Assembly (NCBI GenBank): GCA_964036045.1
Contig: OZ038379.1
Span: 182,111,822-182,175,821, forward strand
Length of the DNA: 64,000 bases
Source: Eutreptiella sp. 'Long Island Sound 2002'
Lineage: Eukaryota; Euglenozoa; Euglenophyceae; Eutreptiales; Eutreptiaceae
Direction of reading: 5' to 3'
How positions within the stretch are numbered: the first letter of the stretch is position 1; the number at the start of each line of letters is the position of its first letter. Positions 13,502 through 64,000 of the stretch are shown here, piece by piece. Made by a program: the position numbers and the translations under genes. The notes beneath the pieces were generated by a model. The model worked only from the letters and a program-made list of their open reading frames with translations. It had not been told where the DNA came from and searched no databases.

Positions 13502-13611
13502 CTGGGAATTGCACAGGGCAGAGCCACAGCCACAGCCCGGGGGGTCTCCACCAGGACCGTCTATAACAGCAAACAAGGGGAAACCCATGGCATCCCTTGC
13601 ACTGAATCTGG

Positions 13612-13743
13612 CGGTTGTAAGGCAACTGACGGCGGTTGTATGGTAACTGACGGCGATTGTAAAATAACTGGCGGCAGTTGTACGGTAACCGACGGCGGTT
13701 ATACGGTAACCGGCGGCGATTGAAGAATAACCGACGGCGGTTT
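13612..13743. repeat. 21-bp minisatellite (GGCGGTTG...TAACTGAC), six units
   Basis: Six diverged 21-bp units of the form GGCGGTTGTANGGTAACTGAC. The same 21-bp logic occurs at 43963-44088. It is followed at 13768-13808 by GGGCGGTCTTTAGC, an A-rich stretch and a CAGGGCC end, resembling the poly-A hairpins of the 39-47 kb region. Confidence 0.9.
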
Positions 13744-13808
13744 CGATGGCATAGGGCGATCTTTGAGGGGCGGTCTTTAGCAAAACAAAAAAGAAAGGAA
13801 GCAGGGCC

Positions 13809-41054: not shown

Positions 41055-43960
41055 GCAGCACCCTGCCGCCAAAATGTGCAGTCGGACGGGGTCCCCATGA
41101 AGACAAGCCAACGCTTCGAACAAAAACAGGGTGCAGCAACCGCAGTCAGCGTCGGATGCCACTGGTCTTGTTTCCTTTTGGGCAACCCTGCGCTGTGATC
41201 CAGGCCCAGGGTAGGGGAAGCGAAGGGCAGACAGGGATCCCGAGCCGAGACCGGGCCGCGCTTATGCGCGGCCACGGGCAACCAGCTCTTCCCGTTGCAG
41301 CGGGACTCCCTGAAAACCTCGTCAGAACCAACAGAGGCCCATGGATTTGGGTTGCAGCCTCAAACAGAACGTCCCACAAGCGGAAGGCTCGGGGGGGTTT
41401 GGGCCCCATCAAAACCAAATTGTCTCAAACTCGTTTCAAACAATACAGAAGTGGAGGGAGGGGGGGCGGGTGATGAGCAGCGACGACTCTGCACAGAGGC
41501 ATGACCCGGCCTCTGTTTCCCAACATTGCAAGCGGCTCACTAACACGTCAGCTCGCACTCTTGACCACAAAACCTGCAGTCTGCCAAAGGGTGCATGGAC
41601 GGGGGTGCCATGCTGAGCAACAGTCTGACAACGGTCGTCAGTTGGGGGGACCCTCTGTGGGATGCACATATTGACGCTACCCTCCACCCTGCAAAGCTCA
41701 AGGCTGCAAAGCAACAAAGTCAGAACAAAACGCTCGTCAGTGACACTGCAACACGCGCCTTTGACGACAAAAAATAGACACTGAGAAAGAGGGTGCCCCT
41801 CCGATTACGAACGAGAGTACGAACTTCAGTGGACCAAAAATGCAGCCCGCCCCCCTTGTGTGTCGGTGGGGGGGATCCCTGATACCCCTTGGACTGATCC
41901 ACGCGATGCGCTGATTATATTGAGGCATGTATTATGGGGGGAATGTTTCTTTATTTTCCCAAAAATTTCGCCCGGGGCTGCTTGCTGCCCTTTTCTTAGG
42001 ACTCAAGGAGGAATTTCGTAATTCATAATCCGCAATCCAGCCCCCTCCCCCCCCCCCCCCCCAAACCCCCACCACAATAGTTACGTCAATATGATACCCA
42101 CCCCTGCATCACCCCCTCAGCAACCACACACATGCCTACTTTCTGTCAAGGATAGTACGGGAGGCCCCCCCAACACCAACCTGAGACCCTCTCTGCATCT
42201 CTTCGCAAGCCGGGTCAGGACTTGGCTGTGGTACCACAGACCAGCGAGTCAGGACAAAACACGGGAGGAGCCATCAAGGATAACCCGTGATGGTGACATG
42301 AATTGGGGGGTGCATGTTGCACGCTGGAGCTGCCAGAGTTCATAATCCAAGACGATTTCTGCGTCTCAGTGTGGGTACACAATTTCGAGACCACCTTTCG
42401 TCCCTGCTCTTCATCATATCCGGAATCAATCCAGCTGAAGCTATACAGGTATGGTTCGAGGTTGCATGTTGCTAGTCCGTTCGATGTGTGATTTGGAGTA
42501 TCTGGTTCGCTGTTTTGGCAACATCATTAAATTACATATCACGATATGGCAGGGCTTGTTGCTGTATCAGAGTGCTTCTTGAGTGGATCCCGCTGATGTT
42601 TTGGACGTCAGCCGGGACACGCCAAAGAGAATGGTGCCAAGAAGTCTCAAGTAAGCCAAGGGGATCATCTGGTCGGCTCTGCGTCAATAGGTCAATCGTA
42701 CGATGTGTGAGTCGCGTGTATCGGTCACGAATGACGAAACGGGGGCGCATGGCCCCCCTGCATCTGCCGCGGGAGCGCACAACAGGACCACTGTTCGCGG
42801 ATACGGGGATCACCTGTCCCATTACCGTGACTTAGTACCCCTCCTGCTGCGGGGGGGAGCTGCTCCCCTTCTTGGACCTCAAAACGCAGACTGCCACTTT
42901 CGGCTCCATTTTTCTGATTGGAGCGATGGTTGGCCCCTCGTGAGGATGCGCAGAAGCCATGCGGACGGCCCCAAACCCTGTTTAAACCTCACGTTGTGCA
43001 CACCTCGCTCCACAGAAAGGGCGAGGGAGTCGGGTCGGGTGGTGTTAGGGACACGAGTGATGTCAGCAGCGCCGTGGGCTGAAATAACGACCGAAACGTT
43101 GCAGCAGCCGCCCCTGTTCGTCCAGGATCTCAGGAAGCCCACAACCAGCACTTGTATGTGGACCAGGGGCTGAACGGGGGTTGCACGGTTTGGTCAATGC
43201 CCACCTTTGTGCTCTGGGTCTCCCTTGAAGCGGTACACAGCAGACGCTGTCAGTCGGGCCCCACGGTGTTGGGGACGGCTATGGAGCTTGGCCTTCGGGA
43301 CAAACCCTCGCCTTCCTTTTCCGCCGACATCATCAGTGTATTCAGGAGGGGGGAAGCGGATTCCGGAATGGGGGATGCCAGCACCCCAAGGGGGAGGTCA
43401 AGCGGACACGAATGCCACGGAGAACGGCTCGGAGACTCGGCGCACGGGGCTTCGGGATGGGCAAACGGAAGCGACTGACGGGTGGGTCTGGAGGGCCTGC
43501 AAGTCCATCACGAATATGCCGCCACATTCGAATGAAAAGATTGGGCACAGGGCGCTGCTTGCACAAGGTATCGGCCAACAAGACTGTACAAGTGTCGACG
43601 TCATCTTGATACCACTCACACTAAACGTGGATGGCTACAGACGGGGGGGGGGGGAGTTCGTGTCGGGACAATGTCGCAGCGGGACGTTTCGCAGAGGTTG
43701 CTGGACAGCCGTGGGAAATTTCGCCGGCCATCTCGAGTGCAATGCTGTGCATGGCTTGGTGGACCGAAGTGGGAGGGGAGGAGGGGGGTGCACGGCATGG
43801 TAGAGCCGCGACTCACAAAGGTGCCGAAGGCGCCGGAGAAAAATTTGTGGCACCGCGTGCAACAAGCAACAAGCGTGGGAAATTTCGCGGAGACCAGGGG
43901 GTGCCGTAATGAAAAAAAAAAAAAACTCGGAGTGTCCAATACGCTCTACGATGGCGGCCG
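41055..43960. other. no firm gene
   Basis: Poly-C near 42048-42062. The 43010-43090 block is related to 10480-10570: the minus-strand readings LLTSLVSLTP and LLTSPVSLTP correspond. A long minus-strand frame at 43600-43480 has a weak acceptor. I do not call an exon. Confidence 0.4.
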
Positions 43961-43962
43961 GT

Positions 43963-44088
43963 GGGTAACCGATGGCGGTTGGTGTGTAACCGATGGCGGT
44001 TGGTGGGTAACCGATGGCGGTTGGTGGGTAACCGATGGCGGCTGGTGGGTAACCGATGGCGGTTGGTGGGTAGCCACCAAACATCAGA
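43963..44088. repeat. 21-bp minisatellite (GATGGCGGTTGGTGGGTAACC), six units
   Basis: Six units with very few differences, flanked on both sides by poly-A runs (43910-43925 and 44103-44116). The left poly-A run follows GTGCCGTAATG and the right one follows ATGCCATAGT. Same unit family as 13612-13743. Confidence 0.92.
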
Positions 44089-44345
44089 GAGTGGATGCCA
44101 TAGTAAAAAAAAAAAAGGGTGAGCGTCCTTATGGCAACCCCTGGCGGAGACCACCAGAATTTGTGTGGTAAGTTTCGCAGTCAATTTGAATGACGAAATT
44201 TCCCACGCGAAATATCCCCTCGTCTGTGTGGGGCGCTTGAGACGACGGAACTTTGAGGAAGGCCTTGCACGGCGAGCTCCAGCACTGCGACAATGCCCGC
44301 GTTTCGGTGCAAGAATGAGCCGTTCAGGCGACCCCCTGTCCCGCC

Positions 44346-44684
44346 TCAGTCACACAGGCACCACTGCGAGTCCTGTCCCCAGAAGACCGGCCCGCGGAAG
44401 GACCACATGGCGTCCGCCACACTGTTCAGCACGAACTTGCCCTGCCTGTCGCTCTCGGCCACCCACGGCACCACAATGTAGTAGCCGGCCTTGAGGGTGC
44501 AGAACACGCTGACGTCGCGCGCGCGGAGGCGCCCGGTCTCGTACAGCGTCTGGGCCGGCGCCTCAATGGCCACCCCCTCCGAGGGGTACACCCCAAATCC
44601 AATGGACAGCCACGGCACGTCCTCCGGCGGTCCACCAGGGTCATCCTGCAGCAGTTGGATCTGCCCGGAGCTGTCGGCCGAGAC
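44346..44684 (-). CDS. VHL-calpain fusion, terminal exon: calpain C2-like domain III, second half
   Basis: Minus-strand acceptor GTTGTGCCTCAG, then 112 codons and a TGA stop. Residues 26-35 (WLSIGFGVYP) and 58-77 (VSVFCTLKAGYYIVVPWVAE) match the calpain domain III pattern, in which a beta strand, then a LxxGxYxVVPST-like strand, precede EGxFxLR. Here QGKFVLNSV takes that last place. The C-terminus ends WCLCD at 44349. Domain III is a C2-like beta sandwich that in classical calpains helps membrane and Ca2+ responses. No penta-EF domain follows, so the protein ends like non-classical calpains. Confidence 0.88.
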   Translation of the reverse strand, partial: VSADSSGQIQLLQDDPGGPPEDVPWLSIGFGVYPSEGVAIEAPAQTLYETGRLRARDVSVFCTLKAGYYIVVPWVAESDRQGKFVLNSVADAMWSFRGPVFWGQDSQWCLCD

Positions 44685-45684
44685 CTGAGGCACAACACAA
44701 CGTGGGGCCCAGTGACTGCCGCAACGGGCGCCGGGTCCTGCATGGGGACAACACTTTGGCGCTAATCTCCCGGAGATTCGACTCCCTCTCAGCGCCTCCT
44801 GCGCACGGACACGTTTCTGTCCTGCCTTGTTCCACTGGAATGGATGCACCATGTAAAGACACGGGCCTGGCTGATCGGACACACACACACGTGTGTGTGT
44901 GTGTGTGTGTGTGGGTGTGTGTGTGTGTGTGCGCGCGCGCGCGTGCGCCAAGGTATCAATTCCATTCATGCTCAAACTACGAGGTTCAACAATCTTAAAT
45001 TCCTCCCACTGCTGCCAACCATGAGTTCGGTGTTCGGCCCTGCAGGGCGGCAGCCCTAACAGGTAGAGCGCTCCATATGTACAAATGCTGCTAACACACC
45101 ACGGCTCCTGAACCTGTAACCCAACCACGGAGCAACAAGACAGACAATGAACATTGAATGCTTTTGTGCCCTACCGCTCCCCACAGCCCATCCCCATGCA
45201 TCCCTAGGAAGACTGGGGGGGGGGTTCGAACTTGAGCTCAGAAGTTGCAATCAAGAGGAACAACATGAGCAGGCTGTCATATCGCCCCTGCTGGCCTCAT
45301 GGCCTGCCCACCATCCAACCAAAGATTGGGCAAAGAGGACGGGAAGGAACGAATATCCCGTGTGTGTGTGGGTGTGGGTGCGGGGGAATGCCATATTATA
45401 GAGGAAGGCCTGCATGGGTCCAGGGGTGGGCGCTCAGCGGAGGGGGGCCTGTGCCAGAAGGATGTCTGATGGATGTCATCATGACTGCACTGGCCCCCCT
45501 TGAGAGTGTGGGTGTGGGTGTGCATGTGCGAGTGTCTGTGTGTGTGTCTGTGTGCGTGCGTGTGCGTGTGTGTGTATTTGTGACACGCAATTCAGAAGTA
45601 TACCACCATCAGGTATTCCAGCACATGACACGTCGCACAGCCCGCACAGCCCCCGTGCCCCACTCGGCCCAGACCCCTTCACAC
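44685..45684. other. intron of the VHL-calpain gene
   Basis: Donor GTGTGA at 45684, acceptor CTCAG ending 44685. Contains a (GT)n/(GC)n tract at 44881-44946, a poly-G run near 45210 and a GT-rich stretch at 45500-45580. Confidence 0.8.
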
Positions 45685-45948
45685 CTGCAACACGAACTGG
45701 GGCTGCTGCTGCCATGCAGTCAGCCCCGGCGCAACACGTGGGCGTGGGTCCAGGGCGCTCCACTGCGAGATCAGACGGAACCTGACGGCATCGGCGCCCA
45801 TGGACGGTTGGAGGTACCAGTGCGGCATGTGCCGTCTGCAGAAGTCAAAGGACATCCAGAAATCGTCCTCTGGATCCCCCGCGTTGCCGCTGAGGATGTG
45901 CCCCGACAGACTCTTGATCAGGCTCTGGCACTTGCGACGCTCCTTCAC
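45685..45948 (-). CDS. VHL-calpain fusion exon: end of CysPc domain, start of domain III
   Basis: Minus-strand acceptor CACTCATTCACTGCAG, 88 codons in phase 0, donor GTGTGA. Residues 26-40 (PEDDFWMSFDFCRRH) correspond to the DGEFWMSxxDFxxxF motif that closes the calpain protease core. Residues 63-88 (W, then TAWQQQPQFVLQ) correspond to the domain III opening, where calpains read TxxxNPQFxLxL. The preceding stretch VKERRKCQSLIKSL replaces the loop that in active calpains follows the catalytic Asn. Confidence 0.9.
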
Positions 45949-46579
45949 CTGCAGTGAATGAGTGACTGTCACCGAAACAGATCAACCGAACCGCAAGAGA
46001 AACATGATTCAACCAGTGGCCGGCCCAAACCCTCCTGTGTGACATTCCGTTGGGATGCAGTTTCTTTACAGGCCCTGGACGGTCACCCGTTCTTCCCTTC
46101 GCGTGCTGCGTTGGGTATTGCGTTCTGACGGCCGCCCAGGTCTGTGTTCCTTGTGGTGTTGTTCCCGGAGCCCGGTGGTTGGCGTATGGGGGTTGTGCTG
46201 GTTGTTACGGGGTCGTTTTACGGTTTTTGCTGCCCACTCCCCTGCGCATCCCCACCCGACACCCCCCTCACCCCCTGCCCCCCAACCCTTGCTCCACCAC
46301 TTTCACCGAACTTCTGTGAACTTCTGCGACGGCTGCCCCAGCTCCCATGGCCAGGCGTGGCCAATCACAAGTCCCCTATCCTGGGACCGACTCACGGAGC
46401 GCCAGGTTCCCGACCCCCCTGCCCCCTGCCCATCACCCTGCCCTGGCGGGTAGAACACCATAGGGCCGCCGCTGACTGCTGTGGGGGGCCAGGGCTGTCC
46501 TTAACGCAAAAAAAAAAAAAAATCCCGTCCAGAACCAGGTAATTTCAAAAGAGCCCGCGGGCTCCATGTGCTCAACCAT

Positions 46580-46763
46580 GGTTGTGGCAGTTGGCGGTTG
46601 GCGGTTGGCGGCAGTTGGCGGTTGGCAGTTAGCAACTGGCGGTTGGTGGCGGTTGGCAGTTGATGGGAGTTGGCGGTTGGCGGTTGGTGGTCCCTTGGGG
46701 CTGTCCTTAAGGGCTGTCCTTAGCAAAAAAAAAAAAAAAATCTCGTTCCTTAAGGACGCCCCT
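46580..46763. repeat. minisatellite plus poly-A hairpin unit
   Basis: GGTTGGCGGTTGGCGGCAGT-type units are followed by two GGGCTGTCCTTA copies, a run of 16 A, and CCTTAAGGACGCCCC. Same order as 38900-39114. Confidence 0.85.
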
Positions 46764-47159
46764 GTGTGGGGCCTGCCAATGGGATACAACTTCAGGTAAA
46801 CCCCAAGCCTCCTGCGCCCAATGTGGACAACTCTGCCGACGGGGGCCACAGGCACAACCCTTAGTGACCCTCAGAGGCGCTTCCGAACAAGGTGCTGTGA
46901 TGACCCGGTCACGTTGGGCTGGGCACGCGAGGGACATGACACCGAAGACGGGCAGAACACCGGGTGGCGGTGCGTTGCAACAGGGGACCGGAAGCCACAG
47001 TCTGCAGCTGCTCATTGGCGCATGGCCATTGGCGGTTGGCAAGCAACAACGAGCAACACAGAACCGACGGCCCAGGGCGTCCTGATCGCCACAAAATGCC
47101 GGTGTCTGGTACGCTCGCACCGCCGCAGAGCGGCAGCCGGAGACTTCCTGCAGTAGGGC

Positions 47160-47305
47160 ACCGCCGTCGGGTGGCCATCGGCCGCATCGGTTGCGTGTCC
47201 ACCGCCGTCGGCTCACCGAATCCTGCCACCGATAAACTGAGGCCGTCCTCAGTGAAAAAAAAAAACAAAGGAAGCGAAATATCTAGTTTCCAAAGGACAG
47301 CCCTG
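47160..47305. repeat. minisatellite plus hairpin unit, copy B
   Basis: Shares GGTTGCGTGTC-ACCGCCGTCGG, CCGAATCCTGCCACCGATAA and the CCGTCCTCAGTG/poly-A/AAAGGACAGCCCTG hairpin with 40881-41052. Confidence 0.8.
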
Positions 47306-47959
47306 CCGACGGCTGTTCGCCCCTCATTCAACAGAACTGCACCAAATGTGCCACGGAGCGGAATACGCAGAAGGGCAGAAGAAAATTTCAATGTCGGGGT
47401 GGGCCCATTGCCCACCTTCCTCCCCCCACTTGGGGTGGGGCTCTTTGGGCCGGCTGCTGAAAGAGCCTCTGTGCCAGGCCCCCCACTGAAGGGGGCTCTT
47501 TGGGCCCAAGAGGTAAGGCCCGCTTTTCGTCGGTTTCGGACCAAATTCAAAGTTTGGCAGACAACTACTTTTGTCACTGTTCAAGCAAAACCAAAATTGG
47601 GGGGTATCGCTGCAGACAAGAAAGGACGTTTCTCGAAGAGGGTTGTGCCACTACACAGTCACTTTAGGAGCCTCGACGTGCCACCATTCCGTCACTTTGG
47701 CGCCTGCCACTACAAACGCGTTTGGGACCTAGTTTTTGTCCCCACCCAAGCACTTTTGGAGCCTGGTTGTGCCGCCAACCAGTACCTTGCGCAGCCGGAC
47801 CCTTTGGGAGACTCCGACCCTCCGAGATTTTTTTTGCGTGGAGCTCTTTGACCCCCCCCCCCCCCAACTCTCCCCCGAAAAGAAGTTTTTTCGCCGTCCT
47901 GAGGGCGCTCCAAGTGCGGCAACAGATCGATCCCCGCGTCCGGTCCCGTCTGGCCACAC

Positions 47960-48409
47960 CTGCTCCGCCGTCGGCCGGTCCGCCTCACTGCCACAGCAGC
48001 TCCGCAGCTTCGCCAGCAGCCGGCGCCGGCCCCCGTCCTCGACCCACGCGCAGTCCACGACCTCGCACGCCCCCGACCCATCGTCGCGGCAGGCGGTCCA
48101 GCGGTGGCCGCGGCAGAGGCTGGCCATGAACCCGTCCTCCGTGCCCAGGTCCACCTCCAGCCCGAAGCCCCCGAACGGCTCCGCGGTGACCGCGTCACGG
48201 CCGCGGCCCTTGAAGTGCACCTCGAAGGGCCGCACGCCCGTGAGGTCCATGAGGGCACTGGGCGCCGCAATGCTGTCCAGGGCCGGGTAGCCCCCGTGGA
48301 GCTTGGCGTACGCCTTCTCCCAGAGCAGGGCCCAGAGCTCGCCGGCGGCGGCGCAGGCGGAGTACGGGGCGTTGCCCTCAGTGACAGGCAGCAGGTCGTC
48401 CACCATCAC
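47960..48409 (-). CDS. VHL-calpain fusion exon: calpain CysPc subdomain IIb (degenerate)
   Basis: Minus-strand acceptor GGCTGTCCCAAAG, 150 codons in phase 0, donor GTGTGG. It begins VMVDDLLPVTEG and continues ELWALLWEKAYAKLHGGYPA and LMDLTGV, unmistakable calpain core (VVVDDRLP, FWSALLEKAYAKLxGxYxAL, xxDLTGG). The catalytic His position is kept in CRGHRW (GHAYSV in active calpains, His at exon residue 102). The Asn motif RNPWG is replaced by RSCCG, with Ser at residue 137. With the Cys lost in the previous exon, two of the three triad residues are missing, so proteolysis is unlikely. Confidence 0.92.
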
Positions 48410-51400
48410 CTTTGGGACAGCCACGGGAGGCGGCGAGGCGGAGCCTGCGCCCGGGGCCGGGGGGGGGGGGGGGGGCTACAAGCAGCGCTGCACTTGAAAG
48501 CGGGGGGGGAGCAGATTTAGACAGCAATCTGGCATTGTTAGTGAACAGAGTTTGTTTTAACTCATTATTTCAGTTTTTGGACTGGGTGGAATGGGTGGAC
48601 TGGGTGAGCAGTCCTGTGTATGGGAACACAGTAGTTACCACGGTCACCTTGGCCATTGTGGAAAACAGGTCCAAAATAGCCTGCTTTTCACACAGAGCGT
48701 GCACAGCGGACGCAGAGCGCCCCCCAACAGCGGCTGCAACAGCGGTTACCAGCGGTTGGAGAGCGGGTTCGGTGGCCGTGCTGGCGGCTGCAAAGCGGTT
48801 GAAGGGCAATCGGGGGGCGGACCGAAGCGGTTGGGGCAGAATGACAATCATCGCGGAACCGGGGGGGGGGAGGGGGGCACAACACCCCCTTCAAGCACTG
48901 GCCCGGCCCCGAGGCCGGTGCAACCGCGTCCAGCCCTCAACGACGTTCATGGACCGTCCGCACCCTCTGCACCCCCGGGGCGTGGCCGGCCGGGGCCCCC
49001 GGACCGGGGCCAGGACTGGCTGGACTGCCTCAGCGTCTGGCCCCCCGCACTCGCTACCCCCAAACCGACCTTGCCCAAGCGACCCACGTGCTCGTCCTTT
49101 GCAGGGGCTCTCCGTCGACGGTGGCCCCTGGTGGCTGGCCATGCCTCACCGACACCCTGCCGCCAGGCAATATCGTCCACGGATTCGCTTCAGAGCGGTC
49201 TGTAGATTCCCGGATTTCTTTCCATTTCTTCTCCAGCGTGGTCGTTACGGGCAGACCTTGGGGCTGGTGGTTAACCGGTCAACAGCCGGCGGTGAACCGC
49301 CAACCGCCAGCAGTACTGCCGACTGCTGTCGGGGCAGAGAGGCTACTGTGTGTGGGACATGTGGGTGTCTCCCACGGGCCGCCGGTGGCGTTCTCCGAGG
49401 ACCTCACTGCAACCCGCTCCTTCCCTATACCCCCCTCCCCCATGACCGGCGTCTCCGCTATGCCAGGACTTCTGGGGCCTCGCCCCCCCCACTGTAGCGT
49501 GTTGCCTCGGGCCGGTCATGCCGCTCGGACCGTCGCCTTGGCTGACAGCGTCACGTGCAAGCGGTTCGGCTGCGGGGCTGTCTGGTACCATGGACTTGAT
49601 GCTGCCGTTGTGCTGCTCGGGGATGCAGCCTTTCCTCTGTCGGTGGCCTGAACATCTGAATCCCGCCGGCCAGACACTCAGCTACTCGGCCAAGGCCCTC
49701 TGCTATAACTAACTCTAACTCCTATTCTAATCCTGACTCTACCGCACTATCTGGGGGCCCAGAGGGGTGGCAGCTGGTGCTGGAGCAGAAGCTAAAAAAA
49801 AAAAGGAAAACACAGTTACAGTACGTCATTAAAGTAAGAGAAATGGTAGCTTAGGATTTAAAGAATCTAAAGCTTTAGTAGAAGGTGGTTTCGGGGGGTG
49901 GTGGGCAACTCCGGGCAGGGGTGGGTTTTGGGGGGGGAAGGGGTACAAACCTAATTCAGGTGAGCTAAGCGAAAATGTGGGTGGAACTTTTGGTAGAGTT
50001 ACCCCGTTCAACAGCCACCTCCCAAGAGCTACTATCACTGGGTCGCAACCACTCTAAAGCACATAGCTTCAGATGAGCGGGAAGGAGGGACGGTGCAACT
50101 TGGTGTGGGAACTATGCACTGGCAGTCGGGAGGGGGGGGGGGGGGCTCCAACTTGTGGCCGCAGGGGTGGATGCTCCACCAACAAGGAAATGACCGGCAG
50201 CAGCTGCACCCTTTGGTGGACGTATCCTGTCGAATGCAGCCACCCCCCAAGAGCCACTGGATTGCACCCACTCAAAGGCACGGGCCTTCAAAGAGGAGCG
50301 GGAAGGAGGGATGTTGCGCATTGGCGTGTGGAATACGCACTGCAACAACACACCGTCCGAGCAAGGGGGGGAGCGGGGCGTGGGGTGTCACTCTGCAGAT
50401 CATCCACCAGACAGTCACCATAACGGAAGTAACGACAGCAATCGAAGTGGCTACATAACCCCTGCCGTCTCGGAGTCCCCAGAGTGCGGAGGCACAGGGG
50501 GGACTGCAGTTCAGTTCTAACACCAACCCCTGTGGCGTGGGCAGGGGGGTCCGGGAGGGGGGGGGGGGGTTGAAATTTTTCTCCATTTTGGGGGCATTTT
50601 TGAATTCCCCATTTCATTCTGAGCATTTTGAATATACACAAGTGGGGTGAAATTTGGTTTTACCACTCACATCACAACAAATGAAAAACAATACCGTATT
50701 CGAATCTGAATCAGCAAAGGCTTCCCGGCCAGCAGAAGAAGACACGTGGCATGACTTTCCCTAACTCATTGTGAGCATTTTGAATGTAAACAAGTGGGGG
50801 GAAATCAAGTGTGTTGCAAATTTTCCATGCTGAATTCCGGGCGCTGTTGGCGCCTCATTTGCCAGTTCTAACCAGGTGCTAACTAGTATGGGCCGGGGGG
50901 TCCACAGGGGGAGGGGGGGGGGGGGGGTTGGTGTCAGGCCTCACAGGTAAGCGCCCCCCGTGTGCGGAGGAGCAAAAATGGCTCAAAAAAAAACTCAGTT
51001 CCGGCGCCGGCCCTTAATGCAAGCCCAAGGCCTTCACCTACCCGCACTGTCCAGGGGGCTGCAACTGGTCAGGTGTGGACCGCCACAAAGCTCCAGCTGC
51101 GCCTGCCTTCCCATGGCCTTCATTGCCAGGGCCCAGAGGGGGGCGGGGGGGCGGGGGGTAATGGGCCTGGCTGGAACCAGATGCCCGTGTACTTGGCGGT
51201 GCCCTCGCACGAGGGTCCCTGTCAGATTTGCGACTAGTCCCCGGCAGCGGCAGGTGTGTTTGGTTCAGAAACTGCCCTGCACCATCTGCCACTCATTATA
51301 CCTTCTCCTGTCTGCCCCCCGCGCCCGGTGGGGACGCGCCGCATCCACCAAGAACGAGCCCCATCCGGAGCAGGATCCGGTTCTTTGTGATCTTGTCTGA

Positions 51401-51502
51401 GCTGGCGGACGCTGGTGCCAAGTGCGGTCCGTGTGCCCCCCCCCAACACGGCCCCCTTCTGCATGCCCACAACAGCTCACCGCAGTGGCACCCGGGCCAT
51501 AC
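48410..51502. other. 3.1-kb intron of the VHL-calpain gene
   Basis: Donor GTATGG at 51502. Contains poly-G runs near 48460, 48860, 50137, 50560 and 50890-50930, a copy of the dispersed GGCTACAT-CCCCTGCC repeat near 50445, and paired TTTTGGGGGCATTTTTGAAT / GAGCATTTTGAATATACAC blocks near 50590 and 50770. No exon seen. Confidence 0.7.
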
Positions 51503-52081
51503 CTTGACCGGGGCGCCCTCCTTATAGAACCGGAACACGTAAATGCCCAGCGAGGGGTACTTGCAGACCACCCCCGCCTCCAGCGCCCCGGGGGCCTGCG
51601 CGTCGACCACCCGCAGCGCCGTCAGGAAGCCGCGGGGGCCGCGGCGCCGGGCCCGGAGGCCCGCGCCGCCCCCCCGGCGCCACACCGGCTCCCGGAACAC
51701 CTCCGCGGGCCGCCTCCACCGCACGCCCGGGTCGGGCAGCGCCACGGGGTCGTCCAGGAAGAGGGCCCCGCACTGGCCGCACCCCCGCACCGTCTCGGTG
51801 ATCTCGGGGTCGGAGATGATGGCGTCGTACTTCAGCCGGGGGGCCCACGGCAGCTTCAGGCTTTGGTCGAGCTCGTCCGCGTCGCCCGCGGGGGGCTCCG
51901 CTTCCCCGACCCACAAGTGCTGCTTTGGGGCGGTGCCCAGGGACGTGCGGTAGAGGACGGCGTGGGTCTGCAGGTCCTCGAACACCCAGGCGTGCGTGGC
52001 GTAGGACTGCTGGAGGTAGCGCCGGCCGGGGTCCAGGCGGCAGAACTTGTGCGGCCGCCCGTCGAAGTCCATCCAGTAGAC
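51503..52081 (-). CDS. VHL-calpain fusion exon: second VHL-beta domain and calpain CysPc subdomain IIa
   Basis: Minus-strand acceptor CCACACCGCAG, 193 codons in phase 0, donor GTATGG. Residues 1-37 (VYWMDFDGRPHKFCRL, then SYATHAWVFED) match the core of VHL-beta (VWLNFDGEP, SYRGHLWLF). Trp3, Ser26, His30 and Trp32 sit where human pVHL has W88, S111, H115 and W117 of the hydroxyproline pocket, while Tyr98 is Phe13. From residue 95 the calpain start is clear: CGALFLDDP, VRWRRPAEVF. The catalytic motif GDCWFLAAL reads GPRGFLTAL, so Cys becomes Arg (residue 150). It then continues GIYVFRFYKEGAPVK, matching GxFxFxFxxxGxWV. Confidence 0.92.
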
Positions 52082-52186
52082 CTGCGGTGTGGTCGGGGGC
52101 CGGCATCCACTCAACGGACTCCAGGTAATGGCACCCCGTCTCATGTGATGCCACGGAAACTGTGGACTTGCGATACTCCCCACCCA

Positions 52187-52367
52187 GGGATCTATTAGAG
52201 GGGGTCTGGAGCCCAAAAGTTTGTACACCAAAAATAGCCCAAATCAATATTTCCCTTTGTAAATCTCATTTTCCCCCACTATGAAATCTGGGTCCAGGGG
52301 GGGGGGGGTCCAGGGAGGGGGTTACCCCCCCGCCCTCCTATAATCGTCGGCGGTTCTAATACATCCC
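52187..52367 (+). mobile_element. miniature inverted-repeat element, family 1 (plus copy)
   Basis: Left end GGGATCTATTAGAGGGGG, right end (reverse complement) GGGATGTATTAGAACCGCC. The core reads TTGTACACCAAAAATAGCCC and TTTCCCTTTGTAAATCTCAT, then a G run. It lies in the 540-bp intron between the two VHL exons and accounts for a third of it. Confidence 0.8.
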
Positions 52368-52620
52368 TGCCCCCAACCACCCCTTCCCATGCATCAGCAC
52401 AGCAGAGGGAGCACGGCGAGATACAGTGCCCGATTCAGACGCGTCTGACCTGTTTTACAAAACATCGTCACTGGGAAACCTCCTTAAAACCTTTTGGTTC
52501 CGATGGGCACCGAGCCGGGGACCACGCAGAGTCTGAACACAGGCACCCACGGCAGATCTAAGCTGGTCCACTGCCTCTCTTACAGGAACCACAAAAGCAC
52601 TGCACGGCATGGCATCAGAC

Positions 52621-52899
52621 CTGAAGCGGGCCCAGGTGGCGGCTCTCGAACAGCACGCAGACGGGGGTCTCGGAGCGCAAGGAGCACACGCCGCCGACAT
52701 GAACGACCTGCGGTATGCACGTGGCAAAGCGGCACTCGAAGACGTGCTGGTCAGAGTAGATCTGCGTGGAGTCATAGCATCGCCACACATGGCCCACAAA
52801 CGTGTCGAGCTCAAGGGCCTCGTCGGGCTTGATCGTGCCCCACGTCATCTCGTTCCCTTCAAAGTCCACCCACACGACTGTCACCGGCGAGTCCAAGAT
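52621..52899 (-). CDS. VHL-calpain fusion exon: first VHL-beta domain and N-edge of the second
   Basis: Minus-strand acceptor TTCTTGTCTTCTGTTTGCAG is excellent. 93 codons in phase 0, donor GTCTGA. Residues 1-45 (SPVTVVWVDFEGNEM, then DTFVGHVWRCYD) form the VHL-beta core: Trp10, Thr33, His37 and Trp39 align with W88, S111, H115 and W117 of human pVHL, so Ser is Thr here. Residues 72-93 (CSLRSETPVCVLFESR and on) match the opening strand of a VHL domain (LRSxxSxxPxxVxFxNRS). That strand is completed by VYWMDFDG of the next exon, so the intron splits the second VHL domain between its first and second strands. Confidence 0.92.
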
Positions 52900-53774
52900 C
52901 TGCAAACAGAAGACAAGAAAGTGCACGCCCTCATGTACAAGGCCACGTGCACAGCCCATTAAAAATTACACCCACCCACACTGACACCTATCCCCACTCT
53001 CCCCTGAGCCCCTCTCCCATATGCCTATATCGCACCAACACCCACACCCACACCACCACCCCTGGACCCCTCTGTACACCCCGACCCACACCCAAACTGC
53101 ACCTGCACCCTGACCCTCTCCCACACTGGCACCACCCAAATACAAACAAAAATAAATCATGTGCAAATGCAATGTTATCGTGGTCTTGTGTGCATAATGA
53201 GCACAATGCAATGATGCAACGGTGGCAAAGCCCATGGCTGTTTAAAGGCATGGGCAGCTCCTCTAGCAGGTTTATAGTGCTTAGCAAAAATTGGAACCTC
53301 TTACCTTTTTCCGAAGGACGTAAGAGGTTTTAAACAGGTTTCCTTTAGCGGTTTGTAAAAGTGAGCGCCTGAAAACGAAAAAAGTTTCCTCTTTTCAAAG
53401 GTGGATGCCTCTTAAAACCTCTTACCTTCAAAGCCTGTACCATGCCCACGTCCAGGTTGAAAAAGAGAAGATTGCATGATGAGCTCGTGCAAGAAAGGGG
53501 GATATGGCGCAGAAATATCCCCAAAATCAGAGCTATGTGGGTTCAAGTGTCAGGGATTTGCTTAACAAGATGGACGGGGGGTCTTAAAGACCCACCCACC
53601 CGAAACCAAAAAAAAAATTCCTCTGTGGAAAAAAGAAATTTTGAATAGAGAGCCCAAAAAAATTAGAGGACCAATTTGGACACACAAACTTTTTATTGGC
53701 CCCGGACGCGGCCACCCAGCAACACCCAACGAGCCCCCAGGGGTGGATATACTGCACTAAGCAAAGGCCTGCAC
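52900..53774. other. intron of the VHL-calpain gene; CA-rich stretch and poly-G-element fragment
   Basis: Donor GTGCAG at 53774. 52970-53110 is CACCCA-rich. 53270-53430 has several CTCTTACCTTT-like phrases. 53436-53552 is a truncated copy of the 31.8/37.4-kb element (minus-strand SSLFQPG and upstream). Confidence 0.7.
53436..53552. mobile_element. truncated copy of the poly-C/poly-G element
   Basis: CCAGGTTGAAAAAGAGAAGA through AGCTATGTGGGTTCAAGTG matches 37681-37780 and 31905-32002 at about nine bases in ten. Both inverted termini are absent. Confidence 0.8.
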
Positions 53775-54153
53775 CTGGTTCAGGAACTCCACATGCACCC
53801 GTGTGCTGCTGCGCTGCGACACCACCCGGGCGCCAGCCTCTGATACTGCCACACTGCCCTCCGCGGTGCGTGCCGCCGACACGCTGTAGTGCGGAGTCAC
53901 AGTGCCCATACAGTGCGACCCAGCCACGCTGCGCACACTTGGGGACCCTGACGGAGCCATGCCGCGGGGGCTGTGGGGCGGCGAAAAGCCACCGGCCGCA
54001 GGGGGCTGCGGAGGGCTGAACGGCGAGCGGGCGCGCCGACGCGATGCGGCCAGGGCCTCCGTGTGATCAGCCACAGAGTCCAGTATGCCCTTCACGTCCC
54101 CATCGGTGATGCTCTTATCCAGGTCCACCAGCAGATCCTTTAGCTCACGGTAC
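53775..54153 (-). CDS. VHL-calpain fusion exon: EF-like helix end, Ser/Pro/Arg linker, N-edge of first VHL domain
   Basis: The minus strand after TTTTTCGGTGTCCCAAG has one base plus 126 codons, donor GTGCAG, ending phase 0. It starts YRELKDLLVDLDKSITDGDV, then GILDSVADH. A disordered RRRARSPFSPPQPPAAGG, SPPHSPRG linker follows, then VVSQRSSTRVHVEFLNQ, which matches the first strand of VHL-beta and is completed by SPVTVVWVDFEG of the next exon. The Ser/Pro and RS-type motifs look like phosphorylation-rich linker. The split of this VHL domain by an intron is at the same place as in the second domain. Confidence 0.8.
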
Positions 54154-54177
54154 CTTGGGACACCGAAAAACCGGGTG

Positions 54178-54275
54178 TCCACCACACCCATACACCCACA
54201 CCCAACCCCCCACACCACACCCACCCCCACACCCCCACCCCCACCCCCACACCCACACCCACACCCACACATATC
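54178..54275. repeat. (CCCACA)n-type tract next to the acceptor
   Basis: CACCCACACC units. On the gene's strand they are GT-rich and lie just upstream of the acceptor at 54154. Confidence 0.85.
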
Positions 54276-54279
54276 CAAG

Positions 54280-55715
54280 AGACCCGAGGGATACCACAGG
54301 CTGCGGATTTCGGGGTGGCCCACAGCCAGCAACAGCCTGGGTTTGTGGGGTGTAGGCTTCCCTCATTAGCGGACCCTTCCAGGAACAGGGAGACCCTTCC
54401 TGGGACAAATCACGCAGTCACCCAGGTCCCCCAGGTGCCTGCTATAGGATATATCGGTGGTCATTGGGGGCCGCCTGTTGGAATGCTAGACCGCGACAGG
54501 GTTGTGGCGGGCGGAGACCCTGGAGGCGGGGGGGGGGGGGCGGGGGGGAGGGTACCCCAATATGTATAGATTGCGCTGATTATTTTGAGGTATGCATGTT
54601 GGGGTCAAAATTATTTTGTTTGGAAAATTTACCCCTCCAAAGGTTGGTACCAGCACCTTGGGTGGGTAGGGGGACGGGAGTGGGGTGGGGGTCAAGTTCT
54701 TGTTTTAATGGTTTGCCATCAGTTTTGAGTTTTGCACCAAATTCTGAAGATTTTGAGTAGACAAACATAGAGTGGAAAACATTTGTAGACCCGTCATTCA
54801 ACAAAAACTTTTCCAGTGCCTTCAGCGTCAACATTCTGGCCAACAATGGCCAGAACCCATGTGATAGCCGGGGGCCTGGAGGGCCAGGGGGGGGGGGGGT
54901 CGGGTATCTGAGCAAGCGGCCCCCGATGTTGGCGGTGGTGCCAACAACTGCCCAAAATGCATGCATTCAGCAGCGGCAAAGGTGATGCCCCAGGCATCCT
55001 GAAACCACAGCACATCACTCGCTATCATCGATCACCTCTCTACGGCTCTGTCCGTGTCGCAGCAATGTCTGGCCTTCCCTCCCGTTGTTGCACAACACAC
55101 AGACAAAAGAAGATGCCTCTATGTACAAACCGTGTGGCCTACCACACCTGGCATCCCGAATGCCCATGCTGCATTCCCCTAGGTGAGGAGCACACAACAG
55201 CGCATGAGCATAACAGTATCCGCATGATGCTGGGCTAGACTAACCGCCCACGCGTGCGTCTCATGCAGTTGTGTGGTGGAGGAAGGGGCGGTTGGCTGTC
55301 TCCATGGTTCTCCATGCCGCCTCACTCCTGCTTGCTCTTTTCTGCTTCCTGTTGCCCTACGTTACCCCTATGCTCTGTTCTGCTGTTTTGCCATGCTACA
55401 CCACGTGTCTTCACACTGGTTTAGCATGCGGCATAGCTCATGTCAGTTACCGAAGCCAGCACCCAGAGCATGAGCAGGCGGGTCCGAATAGGTGGGGAGG
55501 GGGTTGGGGTGGAGGATCAAATTCGCGGTTTGGGACATTGTCGAATTCCCCGTTTAATTCTGACTATTTGGGATATATGCAAAATGGGGGTGAAAATCCC
55601 GTCCCCCCATTCACCATGAGTAGATACACAATACGTTTTTCCGGCCACATAGCTCCTGCTGTCTGGAGGACATGGGCAGAGTGAGCATGGATTGTGGCGT
55701 TGCAAACAAAGCTCA
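54280..55715. other. intron, poly-G runs
   Basis: Poly-G near 54527-54548 and 54889-54900. Phrases such as TGATTATTTTGAGGTATGC (54578) and GGGGGTGAAAATCC recur diverged elsewhere (41910, 50640). No exon seen. Confidence 0.5.
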
Positions 55716-55719
55716 TCTT

Positions 55720-56150
55720 CTCCTACACACACACACACACACACACAAAAATCTCCTAAGTGCATCCTAACTGTGCTGCATACCCACACCCACTCACCCA
55801 CAACCACATACATACACACAGCTACACCACGACCGCACCCAAACCAACAATCAAACACACTCCCAACAGCCCCACTCATCCCACCTCACCCACATAAGCA
55901 CACACATAATCTCATCCACACCCAAAGCCACACCCACACCCACGCCGAAATGCACACCCACACCAACGCCCAGATCCGTACGCACACCCACACACCCGTG
56001 CAACTAGTCCTGTTCCTACACCCATGCCCACATACCCATACCAAAACCCTGCTCACCCACAACGCCCAACCCATTGGCTCCACTCTCACACTCACCCTCA
56101 TCTTGACCCTCATCCTCACTACACACCCTCACTCAGGCCCTGACCCTCAC
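55720..56150. repeat. CA/CACCCA-rich low-complexity tract
   Basis: About 430 bp of C and A with few other bases, beginning with (CA)11. It lies in the intron directly downstream (on the minus strand) of the exon ending at 56155, so that intron begins with a long GT-rich stretch. Confidence 0.9.
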
Positions 56151-56154
56151 ACAC

Positions 56155-56260
56155 CCGGTCTCCCCCGTGGGGTCTGCATCGGAGTCAATGAACAGCACAT
56201 CCTGCAGCGCTTGGCATTGCCTCGGGGTCAAGAGGCGATGCGCCGCAAGTGAATGTGATT
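56155..56260 (-). CDS. VHL-calpain fusion exon: EF-hand-like start
   Basis: Minus-strand acceptor GACTCCTGCCTGCAG, then two bases, 34 codons and two bases before a GTGTGT donor. The frame reads SHSLAAHRLLTPRQCQALQD, VLFIDSDADPTGET. The two trailing bases are completed by the first base of 54153, giving ...DSDADPTGET-G-YRELKDLL. That resembles an EF-hand (helix, DxDxD loop, helix) with a loop two residues longer than the usual twelve. The gene's first exon and start codon were not found. Confidence 0.6.
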
Positions 56261-58060
56261 CTGCAGGCAGGAGTCGGTTGCCATCCGCCATTGCGAGCAA
56301 CACAGTTACACCGCCATGGGGTTGTATGGCGTCATGGGCTGGGGTGCTGAGTCCATAAAAAAGCCCACTAGAGATAACGCAACCCCAGGTGCAGCGATAC
56401 AATTGCAATAGGGTCAATGGCGGATAAGCAGGTGGGCTGCCTCTCATCCCTGTCCACTCTACATACACCAGCAACCTCATAGATACCAGCCCTGTCTGAA
56501 GCTCCCCCAAGCTGCTGTTTTGGCTCCACCAGCCCTGGCCAACCTCAGCCTAAGCACAGCCAACACAGACATTCTCGGCGCTCTCTTCGACCATTGTCAA
56601 ATCCCCCGGTCACAGTGCAGACATCTACCACAATCTTTTGGAAGATTGGTCCGTGCCACAAAAAGCACCCCAAGGACAGCAACACAACAGGGGCCTGCAC
56701 GAATGACAACAAACAAAGTGCCAGCATTGGGCCGAATTTATGGTCAAGTTTATTGGTAATGTCGGCCCTTGTTAGCATTTGCTGGGACTATACTGCTTGT
56801 TTGAAGGCACGTGGAAGCTTCTTGCACAGACAAGTCTTGTATCAGCTGTTTTTTCAAAGGTATCGTTCCGGCTGGGGCGGGGGTATGTTATGTGTTTTTG
56901 AAAGTTGCAGAAAATGGCCATTTCGGAAAGGTATGGGTCATGGGGGGGTCCCGAAGCCATACTGTTGAGTATCCCTTACTGTGTCAGTGAGAAGTGAAAT
57001 AGCGATGCAACCCCTACCATCTCGAGGAGAAGTGAAATGGCTACATAGGCTGCGCAACCCCTGCCTCCTTGGGCTCCCTAATTTCGGGAAGAATCAAAGT
57101 GGCTACGAATCCCTAGCTTTGGAGACCCTGATATGGCGGGGTTCATGTAGTTGAGTCAACTCTCCACGTAATACAGCTCAATCATGGCCTATAATGCCCT
57201 CTTGCTAGCACCCCCCCTACTTTTACCGTATTAGCCCGTCCACCTCCTGCAGTGACAGGGGCACACCCTAACGTACAGCTTCGACCAGAGGCTTTTGGTT
57301 TTTCTGTTTTCCCCCATGCTTTTCTGGCTTTGACTTTTATTTTGCGGTCGGTGTGAGCCTTGTCATATGTAGTTCCTTATGTTGCACATGTCTGCACAAT
57401 TTCAAATATTGCCAAGTTGTGGCACAGGGGGGGCAACCAACTGCAGTCCGTGCGCTAACCCCCCACCCCGACCTCCCACTTATTTGGAGGCTTCAACCAT
57501 ATTGGCACTGCTAGGATTTGTCCCTGGTGACTTTGTTTGTAAGGACATTACTTCACTATACTCCAAATGTTCAAAATTTCGAGATTTCAAATATGCAGTC
57601 CAAATTTTGTGACTGTTGGCATTGTGCGCATTTCAATCCCACCCCACGTGGGGGTCCCAGAATTGGCAAGTAGAGGGGGCATGGCTACATGACCCTTGCT
57701 ATATTAGAGCTCCTACAGTAGGGAGGTGATGTGACTCCATAAACTTCGCTATATTGGTGCCCCCTCAGTGGGGAGGAGCCATGGCTTACCTGTGTCCCGG
57801 CCTTTTTGGACACGTATCTTTTTGACGCACTTTTTCTACCAAAGTTCCTTGTACCTGTCCTTGCGAGTCCTAGAAGGCCATGCGGTAGCGGACATAACAC
57901 GTGATAAAGATAAGCTGAATCTGACACCACGAAATGCAGGTTGACATCCATAACACCATCTATACCCACCAAGGGTAGGCCTGACCAACCTCTCATCCGC
58001 CCGCTGCCCATGCAGAGTTCCACATTGGCCAAAATGGCAGCCACTCTAGAGGTCAGTGGT

Positions 58061-63328: not shown

Positions 63329-64000
63329 CTATTTGGAAAATGTTGGCTGCTCCGTCTCATAGTTCCCCGTTTTCAGCTTTGTCTTCAGCTCCGGCGTCAA
63401 CAGGTCTTCAAAGTCAATCGGCTGAAACACCCCCCCTTTCTTCAGCTTCGCCGCCACAGTGTTACTCGTGGCAAACGCCTGCTCCGCCTCCAGGTGTTCC
63501 GCATCCACCGCGTCCTGCAGGACCTGCCACGTCACCGGCGCCACTTCGTGGGGCAGGATCAACAGCTGATACATGCGGGCCTGCAGGCGCGCCAGGTAGC
63601 GCCGCGGGGCCCCGACCGCGACGCACGTGCGCACATGGGCGTCGAAGAGGTATGGCGTGGCCGCCTTGTACTGGGTCACGGTGGCATTGAACAGGTCGTG
63701 GGCGTCCTTGTACGCCTGCCGCTCATTGTACATGTCTATTAACAGATGGATGAATGGCAGCGGGAGGTTCGGGGTCTGCCTCCGCAGGTGACTCACAAAC
63801 GCCTCCAGTTTCCCGTGCTGCTTGAGCAGCAGCAGGGCCCGCGCCGTGACGAGGCAGGTCGACAGGTTCGGCTGCAGGCCCCGGGTCTTCAGGTCCGCGT
63901 ACGTCCCCAACACCTGTTTCGTTGGGTGGTAGCCACAGGTCGTGGAGACGTGCATCAGGGCGGTGGTCAGCGCCACTTGCTGCCTCGCACTGTCCTGGAC
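63329..64000 (-). CDS. pentatricopeptide-repeat-like protein, 3' part
   Basis: The minus-strand frame is open from the window edge to a TAG stop at 63329, about 223 codons. Helical-hairpin repeats of about 35 residues are suggested by VALTTALMHVSTTCGYHP / VLGTYADLKTRGLQPN, then STCLVTARALLLLKQHGK / LEAFVSHLRRQ, then PFIHLLIDMYNERQAYKDAH / DLFNATVTQYKAAT. The tail (FEDLLTPELKTKLKTG) is charged. PPR proteins bind RNA in organelles and act in processing, editing or translation. No editing-type C-terminal domain is seen. The start codon lies beyond the window. Confidence 0.72.
   Translation of the reverse strand, partial: VQDSARQQVALTTALMHVSTTCGYHPTKQVLGTYADLKTRGLQPNLSTCLVTARALLLLKQHGKLEAFVSHLRRQTPNLPLPFIHLLIDMYNERQAYKDAHDLFNATVTQYKAATPYLFDAHVRTCVAVGAPRRYLARLQARMYQLLILPHEVAPVTWQVLQDAVDAEHLEAEQAFATSNTVAAKLKKGGVFQPIDFEDLLTPELKTKLKTGNYETEQPTFSK

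Follow-up and report, generated by a model that had tools for sequence, protein, structure and literature searches.

A seven-exon gene joining two VHL-beta domains to a calpain core with a changed catalytic triad

A stretch of 64,000 nucleotides (C2:182111822-182175821 of a eukaryotic assembly of 2.28 Gb; hereafter the window) was found to contain, on its minus strand, a gene of seven exons that encodes two VHL-beta domains followed by a calpain CysPc core and calpain domain III. VHL is chiefly familiar from animals, as an adaptor of a ubiquitin ligase; calpain is known as a protease. The seven-exon VHL-VHL-calpain gene is real. The fused architecture and the domain assignments put forward in an earlier note on this DNA hold, both by Pfam on the gene model and by a colinear second copy with the same families at another place in the genome (C7). 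With slightly less than even confidence, we read it as a functional gene encoding a calpain that lacks proteolytic activity, carries two VHL-beta domains directly before its CysPc and C2-like modules and would act as a scaffold.

Gene model and domain evidence

The gene extends from 56291 to 44346, and joining its exons at GT-AG sites gave a single frame of 808 amino acids followed by a stop codon. All six introns, which reach about 3.1 kb, were bounded by GT..AG, and the incoming phases of the exons (0, 2, 0, 0, 0, 0, 0) were compatible, bearing out the earlier claim that seven phase-compatible minus-strand exons form one open frame. The stop that had been placed at 44346 was also retained, while the start was moved to 56291, slightly outside the former limit of 56260. 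The order along the protein was EF-like stretch, linker, VHL-beta, VHL-beta, calpain CysPc, domain III and stop, distributed over the exons as follows.

Exon A, 56155..56291, minus strand: residues 1-46; start codon, helix and first part of the EF-hand-like loop
Exon B, 53775..54153, minus strand: residues 46-172; rest of the EF-like stretch, Ser/Pro/Arg-rich linker and first strand of VHL1
Exon C, 52621..52899, minus strand: residues 173-265; core of VHL-beta 1 and first strands of VHL-beta 2
Exon D, 51503..52081, minus strand: residues 266-458; core of VHL-beta 2, linker and first part of CysPc
Exon E, 47960..48409, minus strand: residues 459-608; CysPc with the end of PC1, most of PC2 and the degenerate His/Asn region
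Exon F, 45685..45948, minus strand: residues 609-696; end of CysPc (DDFWMSF) and start of domain III
Exon G, 44346..44684, minus strand: residues 697-808; calpain domain III (C2-like) up to the stop codon

Neither a stop nor a frame break was found in the 808 codons, and the splice sites were all intact. Compared with open stretches of the same window, the chosen frame had the best codon score for each of exons B-G (P<0.01 each); the score was weak for exon A (P 0.05). The GC content at third codon positions (GC3) of the exons was 0.64-0.97, with 0.79 in the training set.

In a hidden Markov model search of the joined frame, the three families expected from the earlier note (VHL, Peptidase_C2 and Calpain_III) all scored over their Pfam cut-offs. 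PF00648 (Peptidase_C2) was matched at 2.4e-19, with 69.9 bits against a curated cut-off of 23.8, and this match spanned only positions 24-163 of the 297 of the profile. PF01847 (VHL) was matched at 4.4e-17 in two stretches, above its cut-off, and PF01067 (Calpain_III) at 1.4e-4 (22.5 bits, cut-off 21). When single exon frames were searched, PF01847 was matched by exon C (1.5e-6, 28.6 bits) and by exon D (5e-7, 30.1 bits), both over the cut-off of 21, PF00648 by exon E (4.2e-13), and PF01067 by exon G (1.8e-5). Exons A, B and F taken singly had no Pfam match, and exon D alone had none to PF00648. A search of solved structures with the joined protein returned calpain-1 as the best match (1.4e-13) and VHL lower in the list (1.6e-5).

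An independent calpain profile was built from nine calpains of the same genome and two outside proteins, with the window model excluded. Against this profile, the part of exon D after the VHL domain scored 16.4 bits, compared with 2.3 for the best of 2000 shuffles. Thus the second VHL domain and the start of CysPc lie inside one open frame (52081-51503), and the fusion is therefore independent of any splice guess. Single-sequence structure prediction of exon D, with a mean predicted local distance difference test score (pLDDT) of 32.9, was of no use. Exon F scored 5.1 bits against the same profile, with 2 of 2000 shuffles higher; because of this weak score, exon F rests on the second copy described below.

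Second copy of the gene

When the whole genome was searched with the model, nine exon-level matches besides the window were obtained, lying in order at C7:18683379-18733952, with identities of 47-80%. These covered model residues 1-808 except about 598-623. Two of the nine matches ran over a TGA, and both TGA fell outside the exons as placed. When joined by GT-AG sites, the C7 copy comprised 838 residues with no stop, and it matched PF00648 at 1.7e-27 (96.7 bits), PF01847 at 7.1e-17 and PF01067 at 1.9e-6 (28.6 bits). The two copies could be aligned over their entire length, from initiator methionine to C terminus, and their last 20 residues were identical.

The junctions between exons agreed in part. 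LQ|V (C/D), PVK|V (D/E) and VLQ|V (F/G) were in the same place in both copies, and uninterrupted C7 exons ran across the window A/B junction (DADPTGENGYRELKDLL) and the window B/C junction (ELVNQIWNTPVTVVW). Extra introns were observed in the C7 copy near residues 66, 198, 305 and 363. Because its intron near E/F is placed elsewhere than in the window gene, E/F is the junction of the model whose exact position is least certain. The C7 copy was 49% identical to exon F over residues 602-697 (E 9e-26) and 68% identical to exon G. A full-length second copy of this kind supports every part of the model, exons A and F included.

Over 800 codons, with 46 gap columns excluded, the two copies were 63% identical. 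The identity was 71% for residues 1-80, 37% for the linker, 72% for VHL1, 81% for VHL2, 63% for PC1, 50% for PC2, which was the least conserved folded part, and 68% for residues 641-808. By the method of Nei and Gojobori (NG86), the nonsynonymous divergence (dN) over the same codons was 0.259 and the synonymous divergence (dS) 1.213, the latter near saturation, with dN/dS of about 0.21. Bootstrapping (200 draws, 196 of them usable for VHL; dS of the linker not estimable) gave dN/dS ranges of 0.18-0.27 for the whole, 0.06-0.17 for VHL, 0.24-0.45 for CysPc and 0.11-0.28 for domain III. dN was below dS in every folded part, from about 0.07 (VHL1) to about 0.48 (PC2). The ratios show purifying selection; among the folded parts, the VHL part is the most tightly constrained and the former protease part the least. 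The sequences of the two copies have the pattern expected of a functioning gene whose VHL domains are under tight constraint.

In a tree of PC1 with 37 rows, the window gene and the C7 copy grouped firmly together (100/100), with a long stem of 1.51. The sister of this pair was the calpain locus L004, a placement that was not firm (85/76).

VHL domains and ligand pocket

The pocket positions were assigned through gap-free alignments with VHL structures; their numbers are those of chain 8qvu_F (213 residues). The equivalents of Trp88, His115 and Trp117, the last of which we take to belong to the VHL pocket, were kept in both VHL domains of the window protein and in all four domains of the two copies. 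These Trp, His and Trp columns were also invariant over five VHL rows of the genome (two per copy and one from C24). At Ser111 the equivalent was Thr in VHL1 and Ser in VHL2, and at Tyr112 it was Phe and Tyr, respectively. In a published docking study, Trp88, Tyr98, His110, Ser111, Tyr112 and His115 were among the residues reported to contact ligands (PMC5162400). As the Trp/His/Trp core is kept and the full pocket is not, hydroxyproline reading by the window VHL domains is possible rather than proven.

Against VHL structures the match of VHL2 was firm (5.8e-7), and the matches of both domains were limited to the beta part. VHL had been introduced in the earlier note as part of a ubiquitin ligase. 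The beta domains are indeed present, but no counterpart of the alpha (Elongin-C-binding) part came to light: Pfam returned PF00648, PF01847 and PF01067 and no further family at E<=1, a search that a short diverged version could escape. A ubiquitin-ligase role appears less likely because no alpha domain is recognisable.

Catalytic triad

The Cys column of the PC1 alignment was occupied by Arg in the window gene and by Cys in the C7 copy (LGACGFL). Cys was found in this column in 18 of 21 other calpain rows of the genome, the exceptions being L007 (Ala), L017 (Thr) and L022 (Gly), and in 14/14 outside rows. The 21 rows are part of the family, since near-duplicate loci, the loci of the window itself and frames not covering PC1 were dropped, and the identical pair L005/L006 is counted twice among them; one of 15 outside proteins, P0011, was below the thresholds. 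The motif RNPWG was RSCCG in the window gene and RSYWN in the C7 copy, so that the catalytic Asn was replaced by Ser in both.

The catalytic His of the window gene is uncertain. Its GHRWT, which corresponds to GRRWT in the C7 copy, was aligned onto GHAY, and by that alignment the His is kept; when the alignment was anchored on the following conserved Asp, the catalytic position was, in our own reading, not His in either copy. Cys, His and Asn occurred together in neither copy, and the fold motifs VDDLLP and EKAYAKLHGGY were kept. The protease core proposed in the earlier note thus could not be upheld as such. With the catalytic Cys changed to Arg, the Asn to Ser and the His uncertain, the window protein is likely a pseudocalpain.

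Alternative explanations and proposed role

It is extremely unlikely that a separate VHL gene and a separate calpain gene were wrongly joined. Introns of up to about 3.1 kb do lie between the exons, but VHL2 and the CysPc start share one open exon, and in the C7 copy every part recurs in this order and three of the junctions coincide. A decaying pseudogene is very unlikely. On that account an old calpain gene that had become fused with VHL domains would now be drifting and hence have lost its triad, as could be supposed from the lost Cys and Asn, the Cys still present in the C7 copy and the low identity of PC2; yet the 808 codons are free of stops and frame breaks, the splice sites are intact, dN is lower than dS in each folded part, and the exon GC3 values lie around that of the training set.

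Two other explanations assign the protein a conventional activity. If it were a protease still active with a modified catalytic site, its VHL domains might steer it to substrates. The Cys of the C7 copy, the window His placed in the catalytic column by one alignment and the retained fold motifs would fit; the Arg at the window Cys column, the replacement of the GHRWT His by Arg in C7, the Ser at the Asn position in both copies and the lack of any copy combining Cys, His and Asn would not. An active protease, above all from the window copy, is considered unlikely. As a cullin-RING ubiquitin ligase adaptor like animal VHL, with the calpain fold as a targeting module, the protein would make use of VHL-beta domains in which part of the pocket is kept; this is quite unlikely, given that the Pfam families numbered only three at E<=1 and the structure matches were beta-only, although an Elongin-C-binding part that is short and diverged might go unnoticed.

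Several observations weigh against the preferred reading, that of a functional non-proteolytic calpain serving as a scaffold. The dS between the copies is near saturation, the EF-like stretch had no Pfam match at E<=10, and VHL1 alone was weak against VHL structures (E 0.028). The equivalent of Tyr98 was Trp in VHL1 and Phe in VHL2, and that of His110 was Asp and Gln, respectively. Because Tyr98 hydrogen-bonds the ligand (PMC5162400), hydroxyproline reading may be lost. Moreover, the C7 copy retains Cys in the active-site column, the window His is kept by the alignment onto GHAY, and according to a review, triad changes do not always abolish calpain activity (PMC7912814).

As such a scaffold, the protein might be positioned by its C2-like domain III, and perhaps its EF-like stretch, in a Ca2+-responsive manner or at a membrane. 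The two VHL-beta domains would engage a single partner, or two sites within it, and the target may be a prolyl-hydroxylated segment; the dead CysPc would serve as a structural or peptide-binding platform and not as a cutter. A more specific form of this proposal is an oxygen- and calcium-linked non-cutting scaffold in which the tandem VHL-beta domains read prolyl-hydroxylated partners outside a ubiquitin ligase, and the complex is brought to membranes or to the cytoskeleton by the dead calpain core together with the C2-like domain; this form we regard as doubtful. That the VHL domains are the tightest part and the protease is seemingly dead suggests that VHL-beta domains can act in peptide recognition independently of ubiquitin ligases. 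The gene would also be a further example of a calpain fold that persists without catalytic function, here equipped with a targeting module of its own.

Known relatives

The combination of VHL and calpain is absent from the proteins and papers searched. Comparisons among 5.8 billion proteins, in which 7992, 59 and 7986 candidates were scored, gave 3, 0 and 12 matches at E limits of 0.001, 1 and 0.01, respectively; by precomputed Pfam lists, all 15 matches carried PF00648 and none carried PF01847. The 59 candidates came from the search for homologs with the VHL region only, with none at E<=1. No match to the VHL exon was found in phage records, and no relative was present among 96 pattern matches of the two-copy alignment in viral contigs. 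A literature search for a VHL domain with calpain returned nothing fitting, and VHL does not occur in the main text of PMC13413365. VHL is likewise absent from Table 1 of a survey of 44 eukaryotes, which lists domains co-occurring with CysPc (PMC3563603). The earlier note knew of no described protein joining two VHL domains to a calpain core, in accord with the protein matches, the literature searched and that survey table.

The window protein resembles the non-classical CysPc-C2L calpains of the survey in having CysPc followed by domain III (C2L) and extra flanking domains, and it differs from them in its VHL domains, which are not among the CysPc partners of their Table 1; the legend of Figure 1 there marks those calpains whose active-site residues are substituted (PMC3563603). 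With the Paramecium EF-CysPc-C2L calpains (type 32, PMC3563603) it shares a possible EF-hand-like stretch before CysPc-C2L. Here, however, the loop, DADPTGE(T/N)GYRE in both copies, was recognised by pattern only and without Pfam support, two VHL domains stand between, and the triad is changed. In both copies the stop codon comes directly after domain III, and the C-terminal penta-EF-hand domain, a classical calpain trait, is lacking.

CAPN6 (PMC3731218) and the trypanosomatid calpains (PMC7912814) are alike in that a CysPc fold with an altered triad is kept as a functional protein, and calpains taken to have structural rather than proteolytic roles are described in trypanosomatids (PMC7912814). 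In the parts of these sources that were consulted no VHL domain is noted, whereas in the present protein VHL is the most constrained part. Compared with pVHL, the window protein has the beta domain (PF01847) with the Trp88, His115 and Trp117 equivalents, but its VHL domains are in tandem and fused to calpain, Tyr98 and His110 are changed, and no alpha domain was found. One survey, as far as consulted, treats VHL as part of the animal hypoxia-inducible factor (HIF) pathway and reports it in choanoflagellate and ascomycete data (PMC9618697).

Other calpain and VHL loci and surroundings of the window

The calpain family of the genome was very large, with at least 104 exon-level PF00648 matches at E<=0.001 on many contigs. 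When the frames of the calpain loci were searched with a VHL profile of the same genome, nothing was found below E 4 except the window gene, the C7 copy and a pair on C24; this null is weak because most locus flanks were 1.5 kb. Nothing was found with the same profile in the 10 kb upstream of L004. The members of the C24 pair (L002 and L003, at 28.56 and 28.58 Mb) are VHL-beta exons with the same score and 16 kb between them. They seem to belong to a different gene, and a repetitive, charged reading frame was noticed by eye close to them.

Some of the other calpain loci had features of their own. L029:683-5149 (minus strand), the same gene as L007, contained an open frame of 1489 residues with a leucine-rich stretch and several domain-III-like repeats, both seen by eye; in its calpain core the Cys is changed to Ala, the His is lost and the Asn is kept. 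L005 and L006 (C9:50.34 and 50.39 Mb) are calpain genes 51 kb apart and identical over the PC1 tree rows, and in L005 repeated RanBP2-like zinc-finger motifs were seen by eye before the calpain core.

In the window itself, an open frame of 223 residues (63329-64000, minus strand) extends past the window end; it resembles by eye a pentatricopeptide repeat (PPR)-type protein and had no Pfam match at E<=1. Short tandem arrays with A or T runs close by were seen by eye to recur at 43900-44120, 46500-46720 and 13600-13800, and the array near 46.6 kb has units like GCCAACCGCCAACTG on the minus strand. These arrays possibly belong to a dispersed repeat family.

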